64,000 nt of DNA from the IMG/VR virus record IMGVR_UViG_3300050821_003529, positions 45,129-109,128 of that record; one strand, written 5' to 3'. A program made the position numbers and the translations under genes. Numbering within the stretch: the first letter of the stretch is position 1; every line of letters begins with the position of its first letter. Source of the stretch: a virus. The notes under the pieces were generated by a model. That model saw only the letters and a list, made by a program, of their open reading frames with translations. It was not told where the DNA came from and did not search any database. Below are positions 11,444-26,549 of the stretch, in pieces.

Positions 11444-12177
11444 TGGCTCGATCTTTTAATGGTACTAGTCAAGCAATTCAATCTCAATCTACGGTAAATT
11501 TGTCTAACACAGCGACAATTACTTTATCGTTTTGGTTGTGGTGGAACGCATTCGCTAATGACGATGAGTTGGCATTGGAAACGAGCGCAAACTATAATAG
11601 TAATAATGGGGCAATCTTGATCGATCCCAATTCGTCCACTAGTTCAGCCTTCGATGTAAATGTTCACACTAGCAACTATAATTCTTGTAATTTTCCTCGT
11701 CCTAGTGCCGCCACGTGGCATCATTATGGAATAATTGCTAGCACGACAGCTCAGGCTCAAGTTTGGGTAGACGGTAAGTCACAGACAGTTTCTGGAGGGG
11801 CATCGCCAGGGGGGAATTTCGGAAATTTTACGTTAAATCTTATGAGTCGAAATAACACTACACTTTGGGGCGCTGGCCGCATGTCCGATTTCGCTATTTT
11901 TAATCGGGCTTTATCGGTGAGTGAAATTTTGTCATTGGCATCACAGCAAATTACTCCCATATCTTTAGATAATGGTGCTCTGGCTGTTAATTATAAGTTT
12001 AATGAACAAACACCGTTGCAAGACTTGTCACAAAATCAGAATTTTGGAACAGCGACTGGAAATCCAGTTGTTGTAGACGGTCCACCAAATTCCCAGAGAA
12101 GACGACGAAAATTTTGGGGATCGTCTGTGGCTGGTCGTGCGTACACATTTTACATTGCTGCTGAAAAGATTATCTAA
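11443..12177 (+). CDS. LamG/concanavalin-A-like adhesin domain protein
   Basis: 244 aa. ARSFNGTSQAI...TITLSFWLWW at the start, then ATWHHYGIIAS, AQVWVDGKSQTV and GRMSDFAIFNRALSVSEI are the hallmarks of a LamG/ConA-like lectin domain (about residues 1-165). A basic linker (QRRRRKF near 218) precedes a hydrophobic C-terminus. In phages such proteins are virion-borne glycan binders. TAATG junctions on both sides place it in the fibre operon. Confidence 0.85.
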   Translation: MARSFNGTSQAIQSQSTVNLSNTATITLSFWLWWNAFANDDELALETSANYNSNNGAILIDPNSSTSSAFDVNVHTSNYNSCNFPRPSAATWHHYGIIASTTAQAQVWVDGKSQTVSGGASPGGNFGNFTLNLMSRNNTTLWGAGRMSDFAIFNRALSVSEILSLASQQITPISLDNGALAVNYKFNEQTPLQDLSQNQNFGTATGNPVVVDGPPNSQRRRRKFWGSSVAGRAYTFYIAAEKII

Positions 12178-12611
12178 TGATTAAATTTATTCCGTCAGTT
12201 AAAGAAGACATAGATCAAATACGAGAGTGGACAGAGGCCGATCCTTGGCATCAAAATCAGAAACAACCCGATTGGTGGTTAACGGGAAGCGACGCTTATG
12301 TTTGCGCCTGTGTGCAAGACGAAATGGGTCCGGTTGTTTATTTGAAAGTTGAGGAAGAGACAAAACAGTTTAGACTTCACTGTCAATTCGGTCCGAGAAA
12401 AGAAGTTAGTCGTTTACGTCTCATATTAGCGATGAACGAAGGTTTACCTCCCCTATTGATGCATTTAATGAGTAAGGGAAAAAGTATTATTTTTAATTCA
12501 TCTAATTCGAGTTTAATTAGATTTATGGTTTCGAGAGGATTTCGTCCTGTAGAGGAATCTGTTGGAGAGTACAAACTATGTGTGGCCCTAGCGGACAAGA
12601 AGAACAATTAG
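12177..12611 (+). CDS. GNAT-like acetyltransferase domain protein
   Basis: 144 aa. The N-terminus IKFIPSVKEDIDQIREWTEADPWH, the WWLTG segment and the end NSSNSSLIRFMVSRGFRPVEES follow the outline of phage GNAT-fold proteins found next to internal virion protein genes. The usual acetyl-CoA loop (Q/RxxGxG/A) is not evident, so it may have lost catalysis. It overlaps the next gene by 34 bp. Confidence 0.6.
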   Translation: MIKFIPSVKEDIDQIREWTEADPWHQNQKQPDWWLTGSDAYVCACVQDEMGPVVYLKVEEETKQFRLHCQFGPRKEVSRLRLILAMNEGLPPLLMHLMSKGKSIIFNSSNSSLIRFMVSRGFRPVEESVGEYKLCVALADKKNN

Positions 12612-13342
12612 CCAATCAGGAAGCATCTTTATCAACTGCGCTCGACAACGCCTATAAAGATAGATTCGCTACACAGACTAATATACTTAGCCAAGTGCAA
12701 GGTGCATTAGGTCAGTTGCAATCAGGTAATTTTCCTCCTGGTTACTCTCCTGCCGTTATGTCTCAATTGCAAGCTAGTGTATTGAATAATGTGGCTGGCG
12801 CTACGAGATCGGCTCGACAAGCTGCCGGGAACGCTATTGCAGGTGAAGGTGGTGGAGCAGGTAGCGCTTTGGTTAGCGGTCCTCAACAAGAAATTCAGGG
12901 TGAGATCGCCGCAGCTGGAGCCACTAAACAAGCTGATCTTTTGAATCAGTTGAATATTAATAGTTTTGATTTAGGTCGTCAGAATTTATTGCAATCAATA
13001 AGTGGCTTACAAACACTAGCTGGAGCAGAAAACCCAGAAGCATTCGCTAGCGGTGCATCTCAAGCTAATCAGGCGGCATTCGGTCAAGCTAAGACAATTA
13101 ATCAGCAGAAGAATCAGAAATGGGCTGATATAACTGGTGCCGTTACAGGGTTAGCTAAAGCTGGTTTGGGTGTTTTAGGTGGTGGTTTGTTAGGTGGCGG
13201 TGGCTCAAGTGATGGCGGTATAGGCTCTTTTGCCAATCCAGGTGTGTTCTCTAGCACTACTCCGTCAGCTACCGGACCGCTAGAAGGACAATTTGGTACA
13301 GATTGGTTAAACATGGGCGCTGCTCCAGGTGCGTCAGAATAA
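12578..13342 (+). CDS. Internal virion protein, gp14-like position
   Basis: 254 aa beginning MCGPSG, a start common to small podovirus internal proteins. It is Ala/Gln-rich and helical through about residue 180. A hydrophobic glycine-rich segment (GAVTGLAKAGLGVLGGGLLGGGG, near 185-210) could insert into a membrane. Its size and its position before two much larger Ala/Gln-rich genes match T7 gp14-type ejection proteins. It overlaps the GNAT-like gene. Confidence 0.7.
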   Translation: MCGPSGQEEQLANQEASLSTALDNAYKDRFATQTNILSQVQGALGQLQSGNFPPGYSPAVMSQLQASVLNNVAGATRSARQAAGNAIAGEGGGAGSALVSGPQQEIQGEIAAAGATKQADLLNQLNINSFDLGRQNLLQSISGLQTLAGAENPEAFASGASQANQAAFGQAKTINQQKNQKWADITGAVTGLAKAGLGVLGGGLLGGGGSSDGGIGSFANPGVFSSTTPSATGPLEGQFGTDWLNMGAAPGASE

Positions 13343-13353
13343 CTTAAAGAGGA

Positions 13354-15396
13354 ATGAACATGGCAGATGGAAACGTAGTTACTCCCGAACAAGCGGGATT
13401 GGATACATTAGCTAATCAACCGGATATGCAGGCTACGCAGCCGGAACAGATTCCACCCTACAAACCTGCACCAGCGACTCCTATTCCACAGGAACCTGCA
13501 GTAAAACCAGGAAGTTTCGGTGCTAAACTGGCTAACGCTTTGAAGGGATTTACAGCTGCTATGGGCGACGCCGGTGCTGTAGGGCAAGTACCAGAAGGTG
13601 CAGGAGCCTTGTATGGTGCTCAGAAGACTATGCAAGCGGCACAGGCACGACAGAAGCAAGAACAAGAGCATAAGGAAGTGTTGGAACAGCAAGCCCGAGA
13701 GAATACACGTGAAGATTGGCGTGCTATGGCTAATGTGGCGACAGCTAATGCTCAGATGCGTCACGAGCAGGCTCTGACTTGGCAGCTTGGCGAAGAACAG
13801 ATGGATAAGTCTATTGCCAGCGGAAGTCAAATGGCTGATCAGTGGTCATCATTACCGAAGGCTCAGTCTCAGGTTGACGCTGAGAATGTTACTGCGTCTG
13901 AATTGACGAATTTGATAAAGACAAGAGACGCTGCTAGAAATGACAAACCCGGAACTTATGCCTCGACACATACAGCGTTTCCTACCGGAAAGAAATATGT
14001 GGGTGAAGATAAGCAAGGGAAACCACAGTATGCTTTGACTTACACTGTTATGTCGGTTCCTGCGGAATATCAGTTGACAAAGGAAGATCAGCCTTGGATT
14101 GATGTTGTCAATAAGATTCCTGGTGGTAATCAATATAACATTAAATACGATGGAAGTGAAAATAAGAGTGATAGAATGCCTGGATACGTGGCCAACAGTT
14201 TGTTTAAGCAGTCTCAGACTATTCAGGCTCAGACTGCGGCTACTAAAAAAGCTGCCTCTGATTTGCAACTGACAAATGAGTATAACACTTTTGCTCCGTC
14301 GGGCGAGTGGACTAAATATCTTGGCGCTGCAAAAGGCGATATCGCTCAAGCTGAAAAGCATATGTTGGCTGATTGGAAAAGTTCTCCCGATATGAAACAG
14401 AAATTTCCTAATTTGCATCAAGATATTGTCAGAATGTTTGCTACGAAAGAAGACCCAACAGGACAGAGTGGCTATACAACAGCATTAGAAAAGCAGCAGA
14501 AAGACGCCGAAGATCAGCGTCGAGAAGAGGAACGAGAAACTCATGATGCAGAAACAGAACGAATTCTTGAAGCTAATAATAAATTGAAAGATGCTACCAA
14601 GAATAAGTACGAGGGTAATCCGGAATTGTTAGAAAAGTATGAAACTACAGCCGATCCCGCCGAAAAAGTTATGGCAAAGCAAGCTTACAGAGCTTCGTTC
14701 CCTGCGAATGAAATGGCAACAATAGATTCTATTGGCGTAGGAAAAGGCGACGTAGGTCGACTTGCGTATTTGTTGTCACGAAATTCAAACTTGGCTGACG
14801 CTGTTAATTTCTTCTATCCTAACTTCGATAGTTCAAAGGTTGGTGGATATGCGGAAGCGGTTAAGAGCATGACTGCCGGTAAGGATAACATACGGCTGCG
14901 ATCAGCCGGTATTGCTTCTAAGCACTTGTTGCAGCTTTACCAAGGTACTACATTAGGTGCCTTAGTGCCAGGATTTGAACCTATACATGAAAAAGAATCT
15001 ATTTATAATCAATTAGCTCAAGAATTAGCTTCATTTAATGCTCAATCAAATTCTCCTGGTAAAACTGAAATCGAAGACGCTAAGAAAACATTGGGCGGCG
15101 AGTTTTCAGCGACGTGGAATGCTAAGGCAAATCTTAGAAAAGTAGCTAGTTTGATGGCAGACGGTATTAGTGAATATAAGACTCGATATAAGCAGGCGGC
15201 TCCGTCTCCAGCTTATGAAACGAAATATTCTGATTTAAGTCCAGAAGCTTATGCTTCACTTCAATTGGTTGCCGATGACGGTAAAGTTACAATCAAAGAC
15301 TCTCAAGGTAGACCGTACACATTCACAGAAGTGGCCCCTCTTGCTAAATACATGCAAGCTAAGATGGCGTTAGAGAAACAGCAAGGAGCACAGTAA
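13354..15396 (+). CDS. Internal virion (ejection) protein, gp15-like position
   Basis: 680 aa, preceded by AAAGAGG 7 nt before the ATG. A Pro/Gln-rich N-terminus (to about residue 50) is followed by long charged helical stretches (for example 100-140 and 380-420 with repeated E/R/K/Q). No enzymatic motif is seen. The order gp14-like, this protein, then a 1045-aa protein with a peptidase domain fits the gp14/15/16 ejection cassette. It ends in TAATG with the next gene. Confidence 0.7.
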   Translation: MNMADGNVVTPEQAGLDTLANQPDMQATQPEQIPPYKPAPATPIPQEPAVKPGSFGAKLANALKGFTAAMGDAGAVGQVPEGAGALYGAQKTMQAAQARQKQEQEHKEVLEQQARENTREDWRAMANVATANAQMRHEQALTWQLGEEQMDKSIASGSQMADQWSSLPKAQSQVDAENVTASELTNLIKTRDAARNDKPGTYASTHTAFPTGKKYVGEDKQGKPQYALTYTVMSVPAEYQLTKEDQPWIDVVNKIPGGNQYNIKYDGSENKSDRMPGYVANSLFKQSQTIQAQTAATKKAASDLQLTNEYNTFAPSGEWTKYLGAAKGDIAQAEKHMLADWKSSPDMKQKFPNLHQDIVRMFATKEDPTGQSGYTTALEKQQKDAEDQRREEERETHDAETERILEANNKLKDATKNKYEGNPELLEKYETTADPAEKVMAKQAYRASFPANEMATIDSIGVGKGDVGRLAYLLSRNSNLADAVNFFYPNFDSSKVGGYAEAVKSMTAGKDNIRLRSAGIASKHLLQLYQGTTLGALVPGFEPIHEKESIYNQLAQELASFNAQSNSPGKTEIEDAKKTLGGEFSATWNAKANLRKVASLMADGISEYKTRYKQAAPSPAYETKYSDLSPEAYASLQLVADDGKVTIKDSQGRPYTFTEVAPLAKYMQAKMALEKQQGAQ

Positions 15397-18300
15397 TGCC
15401 TCAAAATCTAGATGACATTTTAAGAGCAACGGGTAAACCAGCCGATTCTCCAGATTCGCCTGATACTCCGTCCCCTGCGCCTGCTCCAGCTTTGCAACCT
15501 ACAACATTGACGAATCCGGAACATATTGGAACTCTAGATAGTGTACTTCAGCAGACAGGTAAACCTGAGGCAGTTCCTGAAGATGTTCAGAAACAACAAG
15601 GGATGATAGAGCAGTTGAAACAGGAAGTAGCCGGTCCGGGGACTGTTTTGGGCGAAGCTCCGGCAGCTGGTGAGGGTATTCGCCGAATGCTTCAGGGAGA
15701 TATTGTCGGTGGAGCTAAGCAAGCGGCACAGGGTTATAAAAAGATGGCTACCGCTTCATTGACAAAAGGTTCAGAACAAATCGACGGACAGAAGCATCCT
15801 ATTTTGAAAGCCGGATTAGAATTCGCTGAAGGAATGACTTCTCCAATTAATCTTGGTTTGATTGCTGCATCTGGCGGTTTGGGAATGATAGATTCTGCGG
15901 CAAAGATTTATGCAGTGCATCAATTGGCGAATCTTGGTTTGACTTCACAACAGATTGTCGATATGTACAATCGATTCCCTGAAGTTAAGAAAGCGTGGGA
16001 TAAGGGCGATTCCTCAAAAGTTCTGTATGAAGGAACTCATCTTTTGTTGAGTGGTGCGTTGACTGTGGCCGGTATGTACGATATGGCTGGTAAACCGCTG
16101 GAAGTCGCTTCTCCGACAGATCGTGCTGTAGCTGGAAAGGTTGCTGAAGTAGCTGGTAAAACAGCTACAGCAGTTAAAGAGGCTCCAGGTAAGGTTGCTG
16201 CAGCTGTTAAAGATAAGATATCTGTGCCAAGGGTAGAAGTAAAGTCAAATCCAATCAAGGATATCGCTGACGCTTTTCCGCCTTCTAAGACCAATCCTTA
16301 CGACGTTGAGAAGGCACCTCAGGTCGCTTATAACGCTCTTGCGGCTGAACACAAGCTAAACACCATACACGATCCGGCAGAGGCGGCTGAAGCCTTACAG
16401 AGCCAAATTACCAAAGCTGAAGATAAGGTTATGCAAGGTGCTATTAAGCAGGTTCCGGATGAGCCTATCTTAAAGAATAACAAACCCGTCAACGTTTGGG
16501 ACGAAGTTAAGAGTGAATTAGACTCTAGAAAGTACGCTGAAGCTGGATTCGTAGATAAGGCGATGGATGAGTTGGAAAAATTCGGTTTGACTAAAGGTAA
16601 GTCTGTGACGGTTAGCGATGCGGACAGAATTCGTCGACAATTGAATGATCAAACAACAGCTATAGAAAAGAAACCAGATTATCAACAAGTTCGAATCGAA
16701 AACGTTGATCCTAAATACGCTGCTTTACAAGTAGCTAAGGATGTTCTTCGTGACGGAGTTTACGATACAATTGATGCTCACGGTTTAGATAAAGGTGTCA
16801 CGGCTCGTGATTTTCGTCGAGATATTATCGGAAATCTTATTTCATTTAAGAACGCTGTGTTGGATAAGGTTTATGGTGCTGATCAGCAAGTTAAGGGAAC
16901 AGCGCCGGAAGCACCTGAAGAACCTTTGACACGTAGAGTCGCACGAGGCGTGGCTCCGGTAGCTGGTGCTTTAGTGGGTTCTAAATCAGGCGCTTTGGGT
17001 GCTGCGGCTGGAGCTTATCTAGGAAGAGAAGCTGGAGAAAAGCTTCTTCCACCGCCAGAAGTTCCTGAGGATTTGACTCGGTCTGAATTGCTGGATCGTG
17101 CTTTAAATCACCCTGAGGCTGATAAGTTTGTCACAGAGACTCCAGAAGAACAACAGATCAGAGGAAGAATTCAGAAGCCAGAAACTCCTGAGGCGAAAGG
17201 TCAGGAAGAAATTCCATATGGTCCTATACCGTTGTTTGGACGGCTTCAGGGTAAACCTACTCCGCTAGAAATGTATCCAGAGGATTTGAATAAAATTAGT
17301 AATTATATAAACAGTTTACGAGAAGCTCTCGAAAATCCTACAGCCACATCCGTAGAGAAAGATGCAGCACAACATCAGTTAGAACAAATATTTGGTGGTA
17401 GAATTCCAGAGGGCTTTAAACGCCCAAAAGAGCAGGGCGCAGCTGAGCCTGCGCCGAAACTAGTTAAGGCATACGGTGAATTTGAAGCACCGTCTGAAAT
17501 TAAAAGTCAAACAGGATTAGACACAAAAGCTATCTTGAATCACGAATTAGCTCATGCGGTATTAGCATATATGGCGGGTTTTGAAGTTCACGATATTATT
17601 AGCGGTGAACATGTGGCTGCTTCTCCGCAGACAATAGCTGCTTTACGTGTTAGTTTACCAGAGGACTTAGTTAAAAGATCAGATGGTACATTAGAGCCTA
17701 AAGGATTAAAAGAACGTCTTCCTGATGTTTTGTCTATGTATTTAGCTGGTGCTGCTGCGAATGAATTATACGATGGTGTTAAGATAGAAGATAATAAAGC
17801 TTTAGGAGCTGATCTTAGAGAAGTTAAAGATGCGCTGGATTTACTTGGTTTGTCAGAAGAAGAAAAAGATAAGTTTATTGAGTGGGGAATAACAAGAGCA
17901 AAGGCTACTCTATCGGACCCAGAAGTAGAAAATTTGATCAACGAATTTTCGGATACACGAGAGCGTGGTCTTCCTGAATCACATCACTATAGTGTAATTA
18001 GATTGATGGAATTTAAAGATAGATTAGATAGTTTGAGAGGAAAAAATGCAAACAACCCTGAAGGAACTCATGGAGTCGGTACGGAACACAATCCGGCAGG
18101 CGAATCCAACCGAGAAACGAGTGTTGCGTCAAGCGATACAGGAGAAGCTGCGGGAACTGCCGCCGACGAAATAAGAGAAACCGATGACGATGCTTTTAAA
18201 AGAGACTTATTTGAATCTCTAAGATTGCCTTATAAACCACCTCCAACCGGTACAGGGCCGGGTGGTACATTGCTTAAAACAGAGAATTCGTTACCGCCAG

Positions 18301-18533
18301 AGCGGACAACAGGAGAGTACGATGCGCCGATCAAGGAAGCTGGTGCTATACCCGGTGGAATTTGGAAAGGTGATAAAGAATTGAATATTCCAGATATGGC
18401 TTTATTTCACGATCCTACTTCGGGATCGACATTAGCGTTGCCGGTAGACAAGGTTACGAAAGAAGCCGTCACTGAGCAATTAGAAAAGAGTCGAGAGCAA
18501 TATAGACAGGCTGCTCAAAGAAAGGCTTCTTAA
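15396..18533 (+). CDS. Large internal virion protein with FtsH-like (M41) zinc-peptidase domain
   Basis: 1045 aa. It has a Pro-rich N-terminus, Ala-rich helical regions and a glycine/alanine membrane-like segment near 525-545 (GVAPVAGALVGSKSGALGAA). Residues about 700-870 resemble an M41 peptidase: HELAH at 716-720 (HExxH), a following G-F-E-V-H-D-I-I-S-G stretch, LAGAAANELYDG near 785, and GADLREV with Asp 806 where FtsH has its third zinc ligand. T7 gp16 carries a lytic transglycosylase instead, so this ejection protein appears to bear a protease. It is the last rightward gene, ending 5 bp before a palindrome and the convergent leftward block. Confidence 0.75.
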   Translation: MPQNLDDILRATGKPADSPDSPDTPSPAPAPALQPTTLTNPEHIGTLDSVLQQTGKPEAVPEDVQKQQGMIEQLKQEVAGPGTVLGEAPAAGEGIRRMLQGDIVGGAKQAAQGYKKMATASLTKGSEQIDGQKHPILKAGLEFAEGMTSPINLGLIAASGGLGMIDSAAKIYAVHQLANLGLTSQQIVDMYNRFPEVKKAWDKGDSSKVLYEGTHLLLSGALTVAGMYDMAGKPLEVASPTDRAVAGKVAEVAGKTATAVKEAPGKVAAAVKDKISVPRVEVKSNPIKDIADAFPPSKTNPYDVEKAPQVAYNALAAEHKLNTIHDPAEAAEALQSQITKAEDKVMQGAIKQVPDEPILKNNKPVNVWDEVKSELDSRKYAEAGFVDKAMDELEKFGLTKGKSVTVSDADRIRRQLNDQTTAIEKKPDYQQVRIENVDPKYAALQVAKDVLRDGVYDTIDAHGLDKGVTARDFRRDIIGNLISFKNAVLDKVYGADQQVKGTAPEAPEEPLTRRVARGVAPVAGALVGSKSGALGAAAGAYLGREAGEKLLPPPEVPEDLTRSELLDRALNHPEADKFVTETPEEQQIRGRIQKPETPEAKGQEEIPYGPIPLFGRLQGKPTPLEMYPEDLNKISNYINSLREALENPTATSVEKDAAQHQLEQIFGGRIPEGFKRPKEQGAAEPAPKLVKAYGEFEAPSEIKSQTGLDTKAILNHELAHAVLAYMAGFEVHDIISGEHVAASPQTIAALRVSLPEDLVKRSDGTLEPKGLKERLPDVLSMYLAGAAANELYDGVKIEDNKALGADLREVKDALDLLGLSEEEKDKFIEWGITRAKATLSDPEVENLINEFSDTRERGLPESHHYSVIRLMEFKDRLDSLRGKNANNPEGTHGVGTEHNPAGESNRETSVASSDTGEAAGTAADEIRETDDDAFKRDLFESLRLPYKPPPTGTGPGGTLLKTENSLPPERTTGEYDAPIKEAGAIPGGIWKGDKELNIPDMALFHDPTSGSTLALPVDKVTKEAVTEQLEKSREQYRQAAQRKAS

Positions 18534-23675: not shown

Positions 23676-24051
23676 GCTTTAGCCTCAAATACTTACAGAT
23701 TCTTTTAAATCCGATTCTTAACATGCGGTCGAGTTGCCCAAGCATTGCGTTGCATGGGATACACAAAAGACCTCGAACACATTTACCACAAGATCGCCTG
23801 CCGGGACAACATTTGTGATCGTGATCTATAACCCATTTCTTCAATGCTACTCTACATAGTTTACATAAACCACTCTGTTTTTCAAACATTCGCTTTACAG
23901 TCTCGGGAGTTAAATTGAACCTGTATTTTAAGCGATATGTATATAATTTCAAAGTAAATTCTTTTAAAGTTAAACTATTTCTCCATCGTTTAAAGTTAAT
24001 GCGTGCTCTTTGCGGCAACGTTTCAACGGGATAAATACGAGGTCTACCCAT
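23659..24051 (-). CDS. Endonuclease VII family protein
   Basis: 130 aa. The C-terminal half holds CKLC, VIDHDHKCCPGRRSCGKC and GLLCIPCN, the zinc/HNH core of endonuclease VII-like enzymes (about residues 62-105). The N-terminal 55 residues are strongly basic and may bind DNA. Closely related to the partial gene at 1-207. It could resolve branched replication DNA or be a free-standing HNH nuclease. The start overlaps the NadV stop at 24051. Confidence 0.85.
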   Translation of the reverse strand: MGRPRIYPVETLPQRARINFKRWRNSLTLKEFTLKLYTYRLKYRFNLTPETVKRMFEKQSGLCKLCRVALKKWVIDHDHKCCPGRRSCGKCVRGLLCIPCNAMLGQLDRMLRIGFKRICKYLRLKHDLAI

Positions 24052-25487
24052 TACTCTGCCCTTTTCCTAATTTCTTCTACCGTCTGGTCGATTTTTAGTT
24101 CCCCGTTTTCAAAGACTGTTTTTAGATTATCGCTTGTGTATATCAGACCGGGTTCAGCTTTGACGGTGATGAATTCTCTGCCATTGTGCCCGAGAACTAA
24201 GCGGCCCCGTTTACTAGCCTTACTTGTATCAGTGATCGTCTCTTTCCATACGTCTCTTTCCACACCGTCAACTGTAATGGAGGAACATTTGATAGCAAAT
24301 CGTTGCGTATCTCGGTCCAGTCTCTGTAGAAGCGCCCCACCCATGCCGAATGCGACGTTTTCAGCCGCCCACCCCCGATTGTGGATATGCGCTAGAATCC
24401 CTCTGATGGATTCATAGTTTACTCCGTCTCCTTGAATCACTCTAACGTGTGGATTAAGAACCTTGAATCCTTTACTATTTACTTCGGACCCATATTTACT
24501 ATCGAGCCATTCGAGGACATTTCCTACAGCAGTCGCCGGGTCCCCTGAGTCTGGACGTACCACGACAGCCCCATCTCGGTGAATGATCTGATTTCGAAGT
24601 TTCCATCCAAGAACTACATTGACGGCTTCCTTCAAATCGTAAGAATCACTGACAATGGCCACAGTGCCGGGATATTGATCAAGCATATTTTTCATTGCCT
24701 GATATTCGTTATCTTTGCCCCAGGATGTGATTGTTGAATGCTCTGCTGCAGGAATACTGAATCCGTACATCCCTGGCCCTGGGAATTGACCACCCTCATT
24801 TTTAAGAGTAGATGTGACTATCTCTTTTGCTTCGATTTTAGAATAATATTCTTGCAAATGCAAGATTCCGGCAATTGTATCCGTGCCCTGAAAATTAAGA
24901 AGATGAGCGGCCCCGCCAACTCCTGCTGTTTCCTCTGAACTGACCCCTCTGTATCCAAAGTCGTGTAGCTTGAAATTTATGCCACTAAGGTCTGAACCTG
25001 TCTTTGTATGATAGTCTGTGATAAGTTTCTTGATTTCCCGAGACAGGGTTGCAACCGTTGTCGGATACCACACCTTCATTAGAATCGTTTCGAGATAATT
25101 CGTCAGCCACGGGAAGTCCGCATCCGTATTCTCGATTGTCATCAAAACATTATGAACTGGAATAACAGAGCCTTCAGGAACTGCCTTAATCTTAATAGGC
25201 AGAACACCATCGTATTTATTGTACAACTGATACCATCCGGTATAGTTGAAACAATCGGTTCGACTGAAATGTGCCAAAGCAAATCGATTTGCAGCTTCTA
25301 TATCTTTCGGTGTGAATACTTTCCCTACCAAGTATTTCTTCAAGAGATATTGCAGACCAAAGAATACTGTGTTGTCGAATTGACCGCCACGACTTTCTAG
25401 ATAAGAGTAGACATACTGTGTCTTTGGCGGGTATTGTTTGAAGTGTGTCAGTTTATATGAGTCGGTCTGCAGCAGTAAATTCGTCAT
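24051..25487 (-). CDS. nadV: Nicotinamide phosphoribosyltransferase (Nampt/NadV)
   Basis: 478 aa, about the length of eukaryotic NAMPT. Family blocks are easily seen: DSYKLTHFKQYP at the start, HDFGYRGVSSEETAGVGGAAHL (about 175-195), GFSIPAAEHSTITSWGKD, VSDSYDL, VVVRPDSGDP and VIQGDGVNY. It makes NMN from nicotinamide and PRPP. It is paired with the NMNAT-Nudix gene, overlapping it by 35 bp, so together they can rebuild NAD+ from nicotinamide. The ribosome binding site AGGAG lies within the upstream gene, as does a promoter at 25508. Confidence 0.95.
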   Translation of the reverse strand: MTNLLLQTDSYKLTHFKQYPPKTQYVYSYLESRGGQFDNTVFFGLQYLLKKYLVGKVFTPKDIEAANRFALAHFSRTDCFNYTGWYQLYNKYDGVLPIKIKAVPEGSVIPVHNVLMTIENTDADFPWLTNYLETILMKVWYPTTVATLSREIKKLITDYHTKTGSDLSGINFKLHDFGYRGVSSEETAGVGGAAHLLNFQGTDTIAGILHLQEYYSKIEAKEIVTSTLKNEGGQFPGPGMYGFSIPAAEHSTITSWGKDNEYQAMKNMLDQYPGTVAIVSDSYDLKEAVNVVLGWKLRNQIIHRDGAVVVRPDSGDPATAVGNVLEWLDSKYGSEVNSKGFKVLNPHVRVIQGDGVNYESIRGILAHIHNRGWAAENVAFGMGGALLQRLDRDTQRFAIKCSSITVDGVERDVWKETITDTSKASKRGRLVLGHNGREFITVKAEPGLIYTSDNLKTVFENGELKIDQTVEEIRKRAE

Positions 25488-26409
25488 TGAAGAAGTCTCC
25501 TGAATTTATACTAACCCAAGCTTTCAAAGTTGTCAACAACTTTTTATGGCAATCTTCCATCTGCGCCTCTTTTATTTCAAAGAGGTTGAACCATCCGGCT
25601 TCAGCTGCGTCGTCTCGACCTTTGGGAGCGCCATATATAAATCGGAGCGCAAAGAGAGAAGTATGTACAGCAATTCCAGCGCCGATAGCTCTCCAATCAG
25701 GCAGACTACAACTGGACGTGACGTAGATCGGGGTTCCGACTTCAAGTCCGGTTTCTTCTCGGACTTCTCGATTGACGGCGGATTCGTAGGATTTGTCATC
25801 GTATTCCACTTTCCCACCAGGAAATTTGAGAAGTTTTTCATCTGGTTTCCTGATCAATACAACTCGAATTTCATCCTCGCTCTTTCTTAAGACAGCGCCG
25901 TCAACGCATGGCACTATCAGACTTGGATTGTTTAGAATTCCATAGATTGCACCGGCACGGAAACTTTCTTTTTCCTGAGGCATGGCTGCTGTATATTCTC
26001 GAACAGTTGTGCCAGAAGATTCAACAGACTGTATAATTTCGCTTGTTTTGTATCGCCCATTATATTGATCGATGAAACTGTCTCGTGCTCCATAAAGTGT
26101 CACTTGACAAAGTGAAAATACACTCTGGATAATTTTATCTACTTGCTCTGACCACTGATCATTTGATTGCGTATCTGTCACTGGTGCAACTAGAAAGTCT
26201 GGATACTCTTGATGAAACATCAATGCCCGAGTATGGTAGTCAAGAGGATCACTCTTACCACCCTTCCACGCAGGCGATCCTAGTAGAATTAAAACCCGTT
26301 TATGTCTAGTTGCGACTAAATCGAGTAGACTCCGATGACCTTCGTGAAGATTCGGCACTTGAAATCGACCGATCACTACACCAACGTCTGTAGCCCCAGG
26401 TAAACTCAT
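25453..26409 (-). CDS. nadM: Bifunctional NMN adenylyltransferase / Nudix hydrolase (NadM-Nudix)
   Basis: 318 aa from ATG 26409, which overlaps the upstream small gene as ATGA; an ATG 36 bp further out is less likely. Residues 14-25 GRFQVPNLHEGH form the nucleotidyltransferase HxGH-type site; the NMNAT domain ends near 150. A Nudix domain follows, with FPGGKVEY and REVREETGL (about 196-221); the spacing from GG to the REV core is one residue longer than canonical. It converts NMN plus ATP to NAD+, and the Nudix part may act on ADP-ribose or NAD-like substrates. It pairs with NadV. Confidence 0.93.
   Translation of the reverse strand: MSLPGATDVGVVIGRFQVPNLHEGHRSLLDLVATRHKRVLILLGSPAWKGGKSDPLDYHTRALMFHQEYPDFLVAPVTDTQSNDQWSEQVDKIIQSVFSLCQVTLYGARDSFIDQYNGRYKTSEIIQSVESSGTTVREYTAAMPQEKESFRAGAIYGILNNPSLIVPCVDGAVLRKSEDEIRVVLIRKPDEKLLKFPGGKVEYDDKSYESAVNREVREETGLEVGTPIYVTSSCSLPDWRAIGAGIAVHTSLFALRFIYGAPKGRDDAAEAGWFNLFEIKEAQMEDCHKKLLTTLKAWVSINSGDFFNDEFTAADRLI
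25508..25536 (-). promoter_or_regulatory. Sigma70-type promoter within nadM, reading into nadV
   Basis: TTGACA (25531-25536), 17 bp, TAGTAT (25508-25513) on the leftward strand. The spacer contains GAAAGCTTG, similar to the other promoters of this block. The predicted start is about 25501, shortly before the nadV ATG at 25487, so nadV could be expressed separately. Confidence 0.65.
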
Positions 26410-26549
26410 GAATAGCATCTCATAATTCTGGTGATAGTTTTCCACGCTGCTTGAATTTCTAGTAGTGTTTGTTCTGCTTTTTCGGCACGTTTCTTTAGTT
26501 GAATATTCTCTTGTTCTAGTTCAGAATTGCGTTTGATAAGATCGTTCAT
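26406..26549 (-). CDS. Small coiled-coil protein (47 aa)
   Basis: ATG 26549 overlaps the transglycosylase stop (ATGA) and its own stop overlaps the nadM start (ATGA). The sequence is a heptad-like charged helix (LIKRNSELEQENIQLKKRAEK). Function unknown; it fills a gap of about 140 bp between two genes. Confidence 0.6.
   Translation of the reverse strand: MNDLIKRNSELEQENIQLKKRAEKAEQTLLEIQAAWKTITRIMRCYS

Follow-up and report, generated by a model that had tools for sequence, protein, structure and literature searches.

In descriptions elsewhere, peptidases of the M41 family make up the protease half of a membrane-anchored machine that is driven by ATP. Polyvalent proteins, described as multidomain and injected into the host cell, contain zincin-like metallopeptidases (MPTases) with a glutamate as the third metal ligand (Iyer et al. 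2017, PMC5512222), and either self-processing or action on host targets has been proposed for these enzymes (PMC5512222). The main text of that paper mentions neither 'M41' nor 'FtsH', and a search of the literature for M41 peptidases in phage virions found nothing relevant. Tunturiibacter phage Tunturi_3, which has an Acidobacteriota host, is cultured and short-tailed, a podovirus by electron microscopy (PMC11924767).

Here, we analysed 64,000 nucleotides (the window) of the 109,128-base IMG/VR virus record of a soil phage, in which an FtsH-like (M41) peptidase domain had been proposed, from the letters of the sequence, to reside in a phage ejection protein (the original prediction). Our main reading, to which we assign a probability of roughly 0.6, is that the 1045-aa protein concerned, probably one of three ejection proteins and the largest among them, contains an M41-type peptidase without an ATPase, most likely engaged in self-processing. 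The features are collected in Table 1.

Table 1. Coordinates in the window of the carrier gene, its companions and the proposed parts of the encoded protein
Feature	Position	Strand	Basis
144-aa companion, GNAT-like	12177..12611	+	homology to Tunturi_3 gp22 'acetyltransferase', E 5e-5
254-aa companion, resembling gp14 in size and order	12578..13342	+	homologous to Tunturi_3 gp23, E 6e-15
680-aa companion, resembling gp15 in size and order	13354..15396	+	homologous to Tunturi_3 gp24, E 3e-4
1045-aa ejection-type / polyvalent-like carrier of the putative peptidase domain	15396..18533	+	ORF; syntenic relatives; Tunturi_3 gp22-gp25 block
Short N-terminal motif, copy 1, LDDILRATGKP	15408..15440	+	sequence
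Short N-terminal motif, copy 2, LDSVLQQTGKP	15534..15566	+	sequence
Hydrophobic segment rich in Gly/Ala, residues 518-547, candidate for membrane insertion	16947..17036	+	Gly/Ala-rich block in alignment A5
Predicted M41-type (FtsH-like) zinc peptidase domain, residues 691-889	17466..18062	+	AlphaFold, Foldseek PDB, hhalign
HELAH, residues 716-720, two putative zinc ligands and putative general base Glu717	17541..17555	+	family conservation
LAGAAANEL, residues 783-791, equivalent to the 'GGRxAEE' helix of FtsH	17742..17768	+	hhalign pairing with that helix; G785 in 22/22
GADLREV, residues 804-810	17805..17825	+	Asp806 (17811-17813), proposed third zinc ligand
RE-GL----H-S--R motif, residues 855-869, phage-family signature without FtsH counterpart	17958..18002	+	invariant residues in 22/22
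C-terminal module, residues 967-1045, PPERTTGxxDxxIKxxGxIPGG...FHDPTSGSTLAL	18294..18530	+	recurs in relatives

The carrier gene and its place in the late operon

The carrier is encoded by the final gene of the late (structural) operon, where genes for the terminase, the portal and the major head proteins are followed by those for the 144-, 254- and 680-aa companions. In five relatives (L011, L013, L014, L015 and L018), the M41 protein is likewise preceded by this block. The portal has its best GenBank match in Tunturi_3 (E 9e-87), and gp22-gp25 of that phage match the block of the window in order, gp25 at its N-terminus only (E 0.004). The host would belong to the Acidobacteriota, judging only from the match of the portal and from the gene block common to both phages.

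The assignment of an ejection protein to the 'gp16 position', as made in the original prediction, stands with respect to gene order and size, given the succession of a GNAT-like protein and proteins of ~250, ~700 and >1000 aa at the operon end, in synteny with a podovirus. Sequence kinship was not detected: in hhalign comparisons of the carrier and its companions with the internal virion proteins of T7 (gp13-gp16), phiKMV and SP6, the probability was 1.2% or less in every case. Because no relation to these proteins was found, we infer the ejection role only from gene order, size and the podovirus relative; delivery of the carrier with the virion nevertheless appears likely. The genome was also searched for a T7-type RNA polymerase, but none of the controls was detected, so that this search carries no weight.

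The occupant of the same genomic slot in Tunturi_3, gp25 (PP885686; L048:26674-29886), is a 1070-aa protein that likewise has short N-terminal repeats and a lone HExxH in the C-terminal third (HELTH at 803; 0.004 expected by composition). However, this HExxH region does not match the M41-like profile, and the overall similarity of the two proteins is weak. Relatives of gp25 were sought in viral contigs and none was found. Another metallopeptidase may fill the same role in this slot of Tunturi_3.

Paired or tripled short phage-specific motifs are seen in the disordered N-terminal tail of the ejection-type proteins of the window, L011, L013, L014, L015, L018, L045 and L048, in versions that include DFFxQFGGxVVSKP (L018), MMTDLQGNxVPIPxGA (L011) and LDMSTAQP (Tunturi_3 gp25); such repeats are candidate docking or packaging signals. 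The Gly/Ala-rich segment may function in membrane insertion, and the C-terminal module recurs among the sequences of L013, L014, L015, L016, L018 and L045. Elsewhere in the window (24051-26445, minus strand), a gene for a nicotinamide phosphoribosyltransferase (PF04095, PF18127) adjoins one for a Nudix protein (PF00293) with an unassigned N-terminal part, a pair that we take to be possibly an NAD-rebuilding counter-defence.

Evidence for an M41-type domain and its phage family

The motifs HELAH, LAGAAANEL and GADLREV, the last with Asp806, are present exactly as originally claimed, all within 17490-18050, and HELAH is the sole HExxH of the 1045-aa protein (0.03 expected from composition). An AlphaFold model of residues 691-889, computed from an alignment of 14 copies of the domain, has a pLDDT of 80.6 and a pTM of 0.82. 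When this model was compared with the PDB using Foldseek, the first 24 matches were all M41 chains (FtsH, AFG3L2 and FtsHi), with probabilities mostly above 0.9 (best 0.96-1.0) at modest E values of 0.02-0.6; among the first 20, 19 had a probability of at least 0.92 (E 0.02-0.3, TM by query 0.41-0.53), and past the M41 chains the probability drops to ~0.1. In a viral structure library, an uncultured phage supplies the second match, a protein of 214 aa named 'Peptidase M41 domain-containing protein'. Residues 130-715 yielded a low-confidence model (pLDDT 55), and the structure search with it returned no matches, M41 or other.

Profile comparison points in the same direction. Aligned by hhalign with 17 FtsH-type M41 domains, the family reached a probability of 95 (P 3.4e-8); with 22 copies, P was 2.3e-8 and the match extended from the HExxH helix through the C-terminal helices. 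The true score was 57.5; column shuffles with the HExxH block left intact, 100 in number, reached 36.8 at most, and full shuffles 20.6. The predicted fold, the check named with the original prediction, was M41 and no other by AlphaFold and the top 24 Foldseek matches in the PDB. This fold and the profile comparison both bear out the FtsH-like (M41) zinc-peptidase domain of the original prediction, and residues 691-889 very probably form an M41-fold domain with a metal site.

Curated models do not reach this domain. Searches of Pfam, PHROGs and NCBIfam with the 1045-aa protein gave no family above noise; the curated M41 model, PF01434, did not match the window protein at E<=10, and its best match among the relatives (E 0.016) lies below the curated cut-off. 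The window protein had no phmmer match in the PDB, and neither its domain nor that of L007 had a tblastn match among GenBank phages, even at E 10; an hmmsearch of the PDB with the family profile gave helical-repeat noise only and was set aside. Because PF01434 misses the window protein, the domain is, as far as sequence goes, a divergent M41-type branch outside the reach of that model.

The family comprises 22 distinct domain copies from 17 contigs, in large viral proteins of up to 2.3 thousand residues. Peptide-seeded scans yielded a single relative, L001 (91% identical), whereas a gapped DNA pattern (HExxHA - AGxAAxE - D) run over viral contigs retrieved L006, L007 and L009 and opened the family; an alignment of these led to L010-L018, and a second pattern to L051-L055 and L058. 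A further member, of 2329 aa and with two domain copies, comes from the same assembly as L018. Two candidates were excluded, L019 as a DnaE false positive and L005 as not a family member. Between the window and L001, dN/dS of the domain is 0.08; the domain is under purifying selection.

His716, His720 and Asp806 are present in all 22 copies, and so are, beyond the HExxH motif, G785, N800, R855, E856, L859, H864, S866 and R869. Because both the metal-site residues and residues outside the motif are invariant, HELAH is, by the measure of conservation, more than a chance occurrence. In the ungapped hhalign alignment, Asp806 lies four residues (one helical turn) past the zinc Asp of FtsH, and a match in register needs a gap; Asp806 is the putative third zinc ligand. 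Zinc would then be held by His716, His720 and presumably Asp806, with Glu717 as the general base of a peptidase, and the domain is probably active.

Position 717 is Glu in 17 of the 22 copies and Asp in the other 5. The 5 HDxxH copies belong without exception to the first-copy type (L011, L013, L014, L015 and L016) and keep the three metal-site residues; 4 of the 5 proteins that bear them also contain a second copy with HELGH, and L016 has the HDxxH copy only. Because of L016, activity may not be universal across the family. In the tree, the window domain clusters with the first-type copies (support 0.97). Both members of the window pair, as well as L045, fall outside the HDxxH lineages, which makes HExxH the apparent ancestral state.

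The relatives contain one or two M41-like copies per large multidomain protein, together with ART-PolyVal in L016 (E 3e-11) and DUF7178 in L010, L011, L012, L018 and L045; in the window protein itself, the M41 domain is the sole recognised domain. DUF7178 cargo also occurs in gp40 of Roseobacter phage CRP-738 (L049:8101-10608), close to the gene for the portal, and has matches among phage proteins with glycosylase annotations.

Three further observations concern the contigs surveyed. A 2034-aa protein of L012 has an extra C-terminal HEAGH domain (L012:13085-13651), more FtsH-like than the others, with a sub-threshold PF01434 match (E 0.06). Two contigs assembled with the uncultured archaeon LFW-28 (L018 and L045) are binned as archaeal and contain the structural genes of this phage family; they are probably mis-binned viral contigs. 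Finally, a full AAA+ plus M41 FtsH-like protein (PF01434 E 3e-16) is encoded near the end of the viral contig L008 (IMGVR_UViG_2858625304_000001), and this gene may be host flank.

Possible roles of the peptidase domain

We propose that the long helical N-terminal core of the carrier, together with its Gly/Ala-rich segment, which is probably membrane-active, would be packaged into the head and pass into the host along with the DNA. Directly behind this core, ahead of a low-complexity linker and, in relatives, of effector-type cargo, lies the M41 domain, which could cleave its own carrier or the partner proteins, during head maturation or after ejection, such that the core is parted from the C-terminal parts. 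Where the core is recognisable, the domain lies between it and the linker or cargo, so that its placement would suit cleavage between them. Self-processing by metallopeptidases of injected polyvalent proteins provides a precedent (PMC5512222), and this role appears to fit the architecture of the relatives and the published precedent at least as well as the cutting of host targets. Only about 155 residues follow the domain in the window protein, which leaves little to release and counts against self-processing, and no cleavage site is visible in that protein. Self-processing as the main role is a tentative proposal, with somewhat less than an even chance of being right.

Alternatively, the domain could act as an effector, injected to cleave a protein of the host (one involved in defence, the envelope or transcription) straight after DNA entry; defence and envelope proteins were the examples given in the original prediction. 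This agrees with the likely delivery of the carrier, with the presence of other effector-type domains in relatives, such as ART-PolyVal, and with the published model, which lets polyvalent metallopeptidases act on host targets (PMC5512222). Yet the domain is tied to one kind of carrier and to a fixed gene block rather than being a stand-alone effector, and the apparently unrelated HExxH in the Tunturi_3 slot points to a requirement of ejection rather more than to any single host target. We consider a host protein a less likely main target, albeit the main rival.

Still less probable is a mainly structural or regulatory domain, in which the M41 fold persists because it binds zinc or serves assembly, and proteolysis is slight or absent. 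The 5 HDxxH copies, with their intact metal sites, indicate that fold and site can persist without the usual general base, and in L016 such a copy is the only one; nevertheless, HExxH is retained in the window copy and 16 others, and an HExxH copy accompanies HDxxH in 4 of the 5 proteins. The least credible view is that the domain resembles FtsH by coincidence and is a member of a different zinc-peptidase clan (for example Glu-type polyvalent zincins, or M50): searched alone against Pfam, the domain gave just weak M50/M50B matches confined to the HExxH helix (E 0.1-0.2), whereas M41 stood alone in the structure search, the whole-domain match to the FtsH profile lies far above the motif-preserving shuffles, and the invariant residue is Asp as opposed to the Glu of published MPTases (PMC5512222).

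A broader and rather doubtful reading would be that (probably) Acidobacteriota phages with short tails employ a proteolytic step in DNA ejection, performed by an HExxH peptidase in the gp16 slot (M41 here, a different one in Tunturi_3), and that duplication of the M41 domain has, in several lineages, given rise to an HDxxH regulatory partner. A motor-less branch in a probably injected phage protein would be a naturally ATP-independent M41 enzyme, and proteolysis would join the means by which phages are known to deliver their DNA. The 22-copy family, some of whose members have a Glu-to-Asp change in the catalytic motif, makes the proposal testable, and with Tunturi_3 there is a phage in culture on which one can ask whether this slot requires a peptidase.

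Comparison with known systems

With FtsH and the m-AAA proteases (MEROPS M41, PF01434), the phage domain shares the HExxH helix, two strands, the AG-x-A-x-E helix, the Asp-bearing helix and the C-terminal helices, in the same order. By contrast, the transmembrane parts of FtsH are missing from the phage protein, and no AAA+ domain was found on its 1045 residues by Pfam. The phage domain is also ~11 residues longer than that of E. coli FtsH between HExxH and the AG motif, has Asn at the first Glu of 'AEE', possesses the phage-specific RE-GL----H-S--R tail and falls below every curated cut-off.

Like T7 gp16 and other large ejection proteins of podoviruses, the carrier is the last in a structural-operon series of a small, a ~700-aa and a >1000-aa protein, and is large and mostly helical, with a hydrophobic segment. 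It differs from them in having no detectable sequence relation and in carrying a peptidase domain where no transglycosylase domain was found. The C1 domain of the N4 virion RNA polymerase (PMC12633501) offers another parallel, by description only, as a conserved HExxH domain with unproven function in a giant ejected virion protein, although that protein is an RNA polymerase and otherwise different.

The polyvalent proteins with MPTases (PMC5512222) are alike in being large, multidomain and thought to be co-injected with DNA, often with at least one HExxH domain and an ART domain, as ART-PolyVal is found among the relatives here; they differ in that their third ligand is Glu, and no M41 member is described among them. 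The family is thus best called, on present sequence evidence, an M41-type peptidase in a polyvalent-type ejection protein, and what is new is M41 in that setting.
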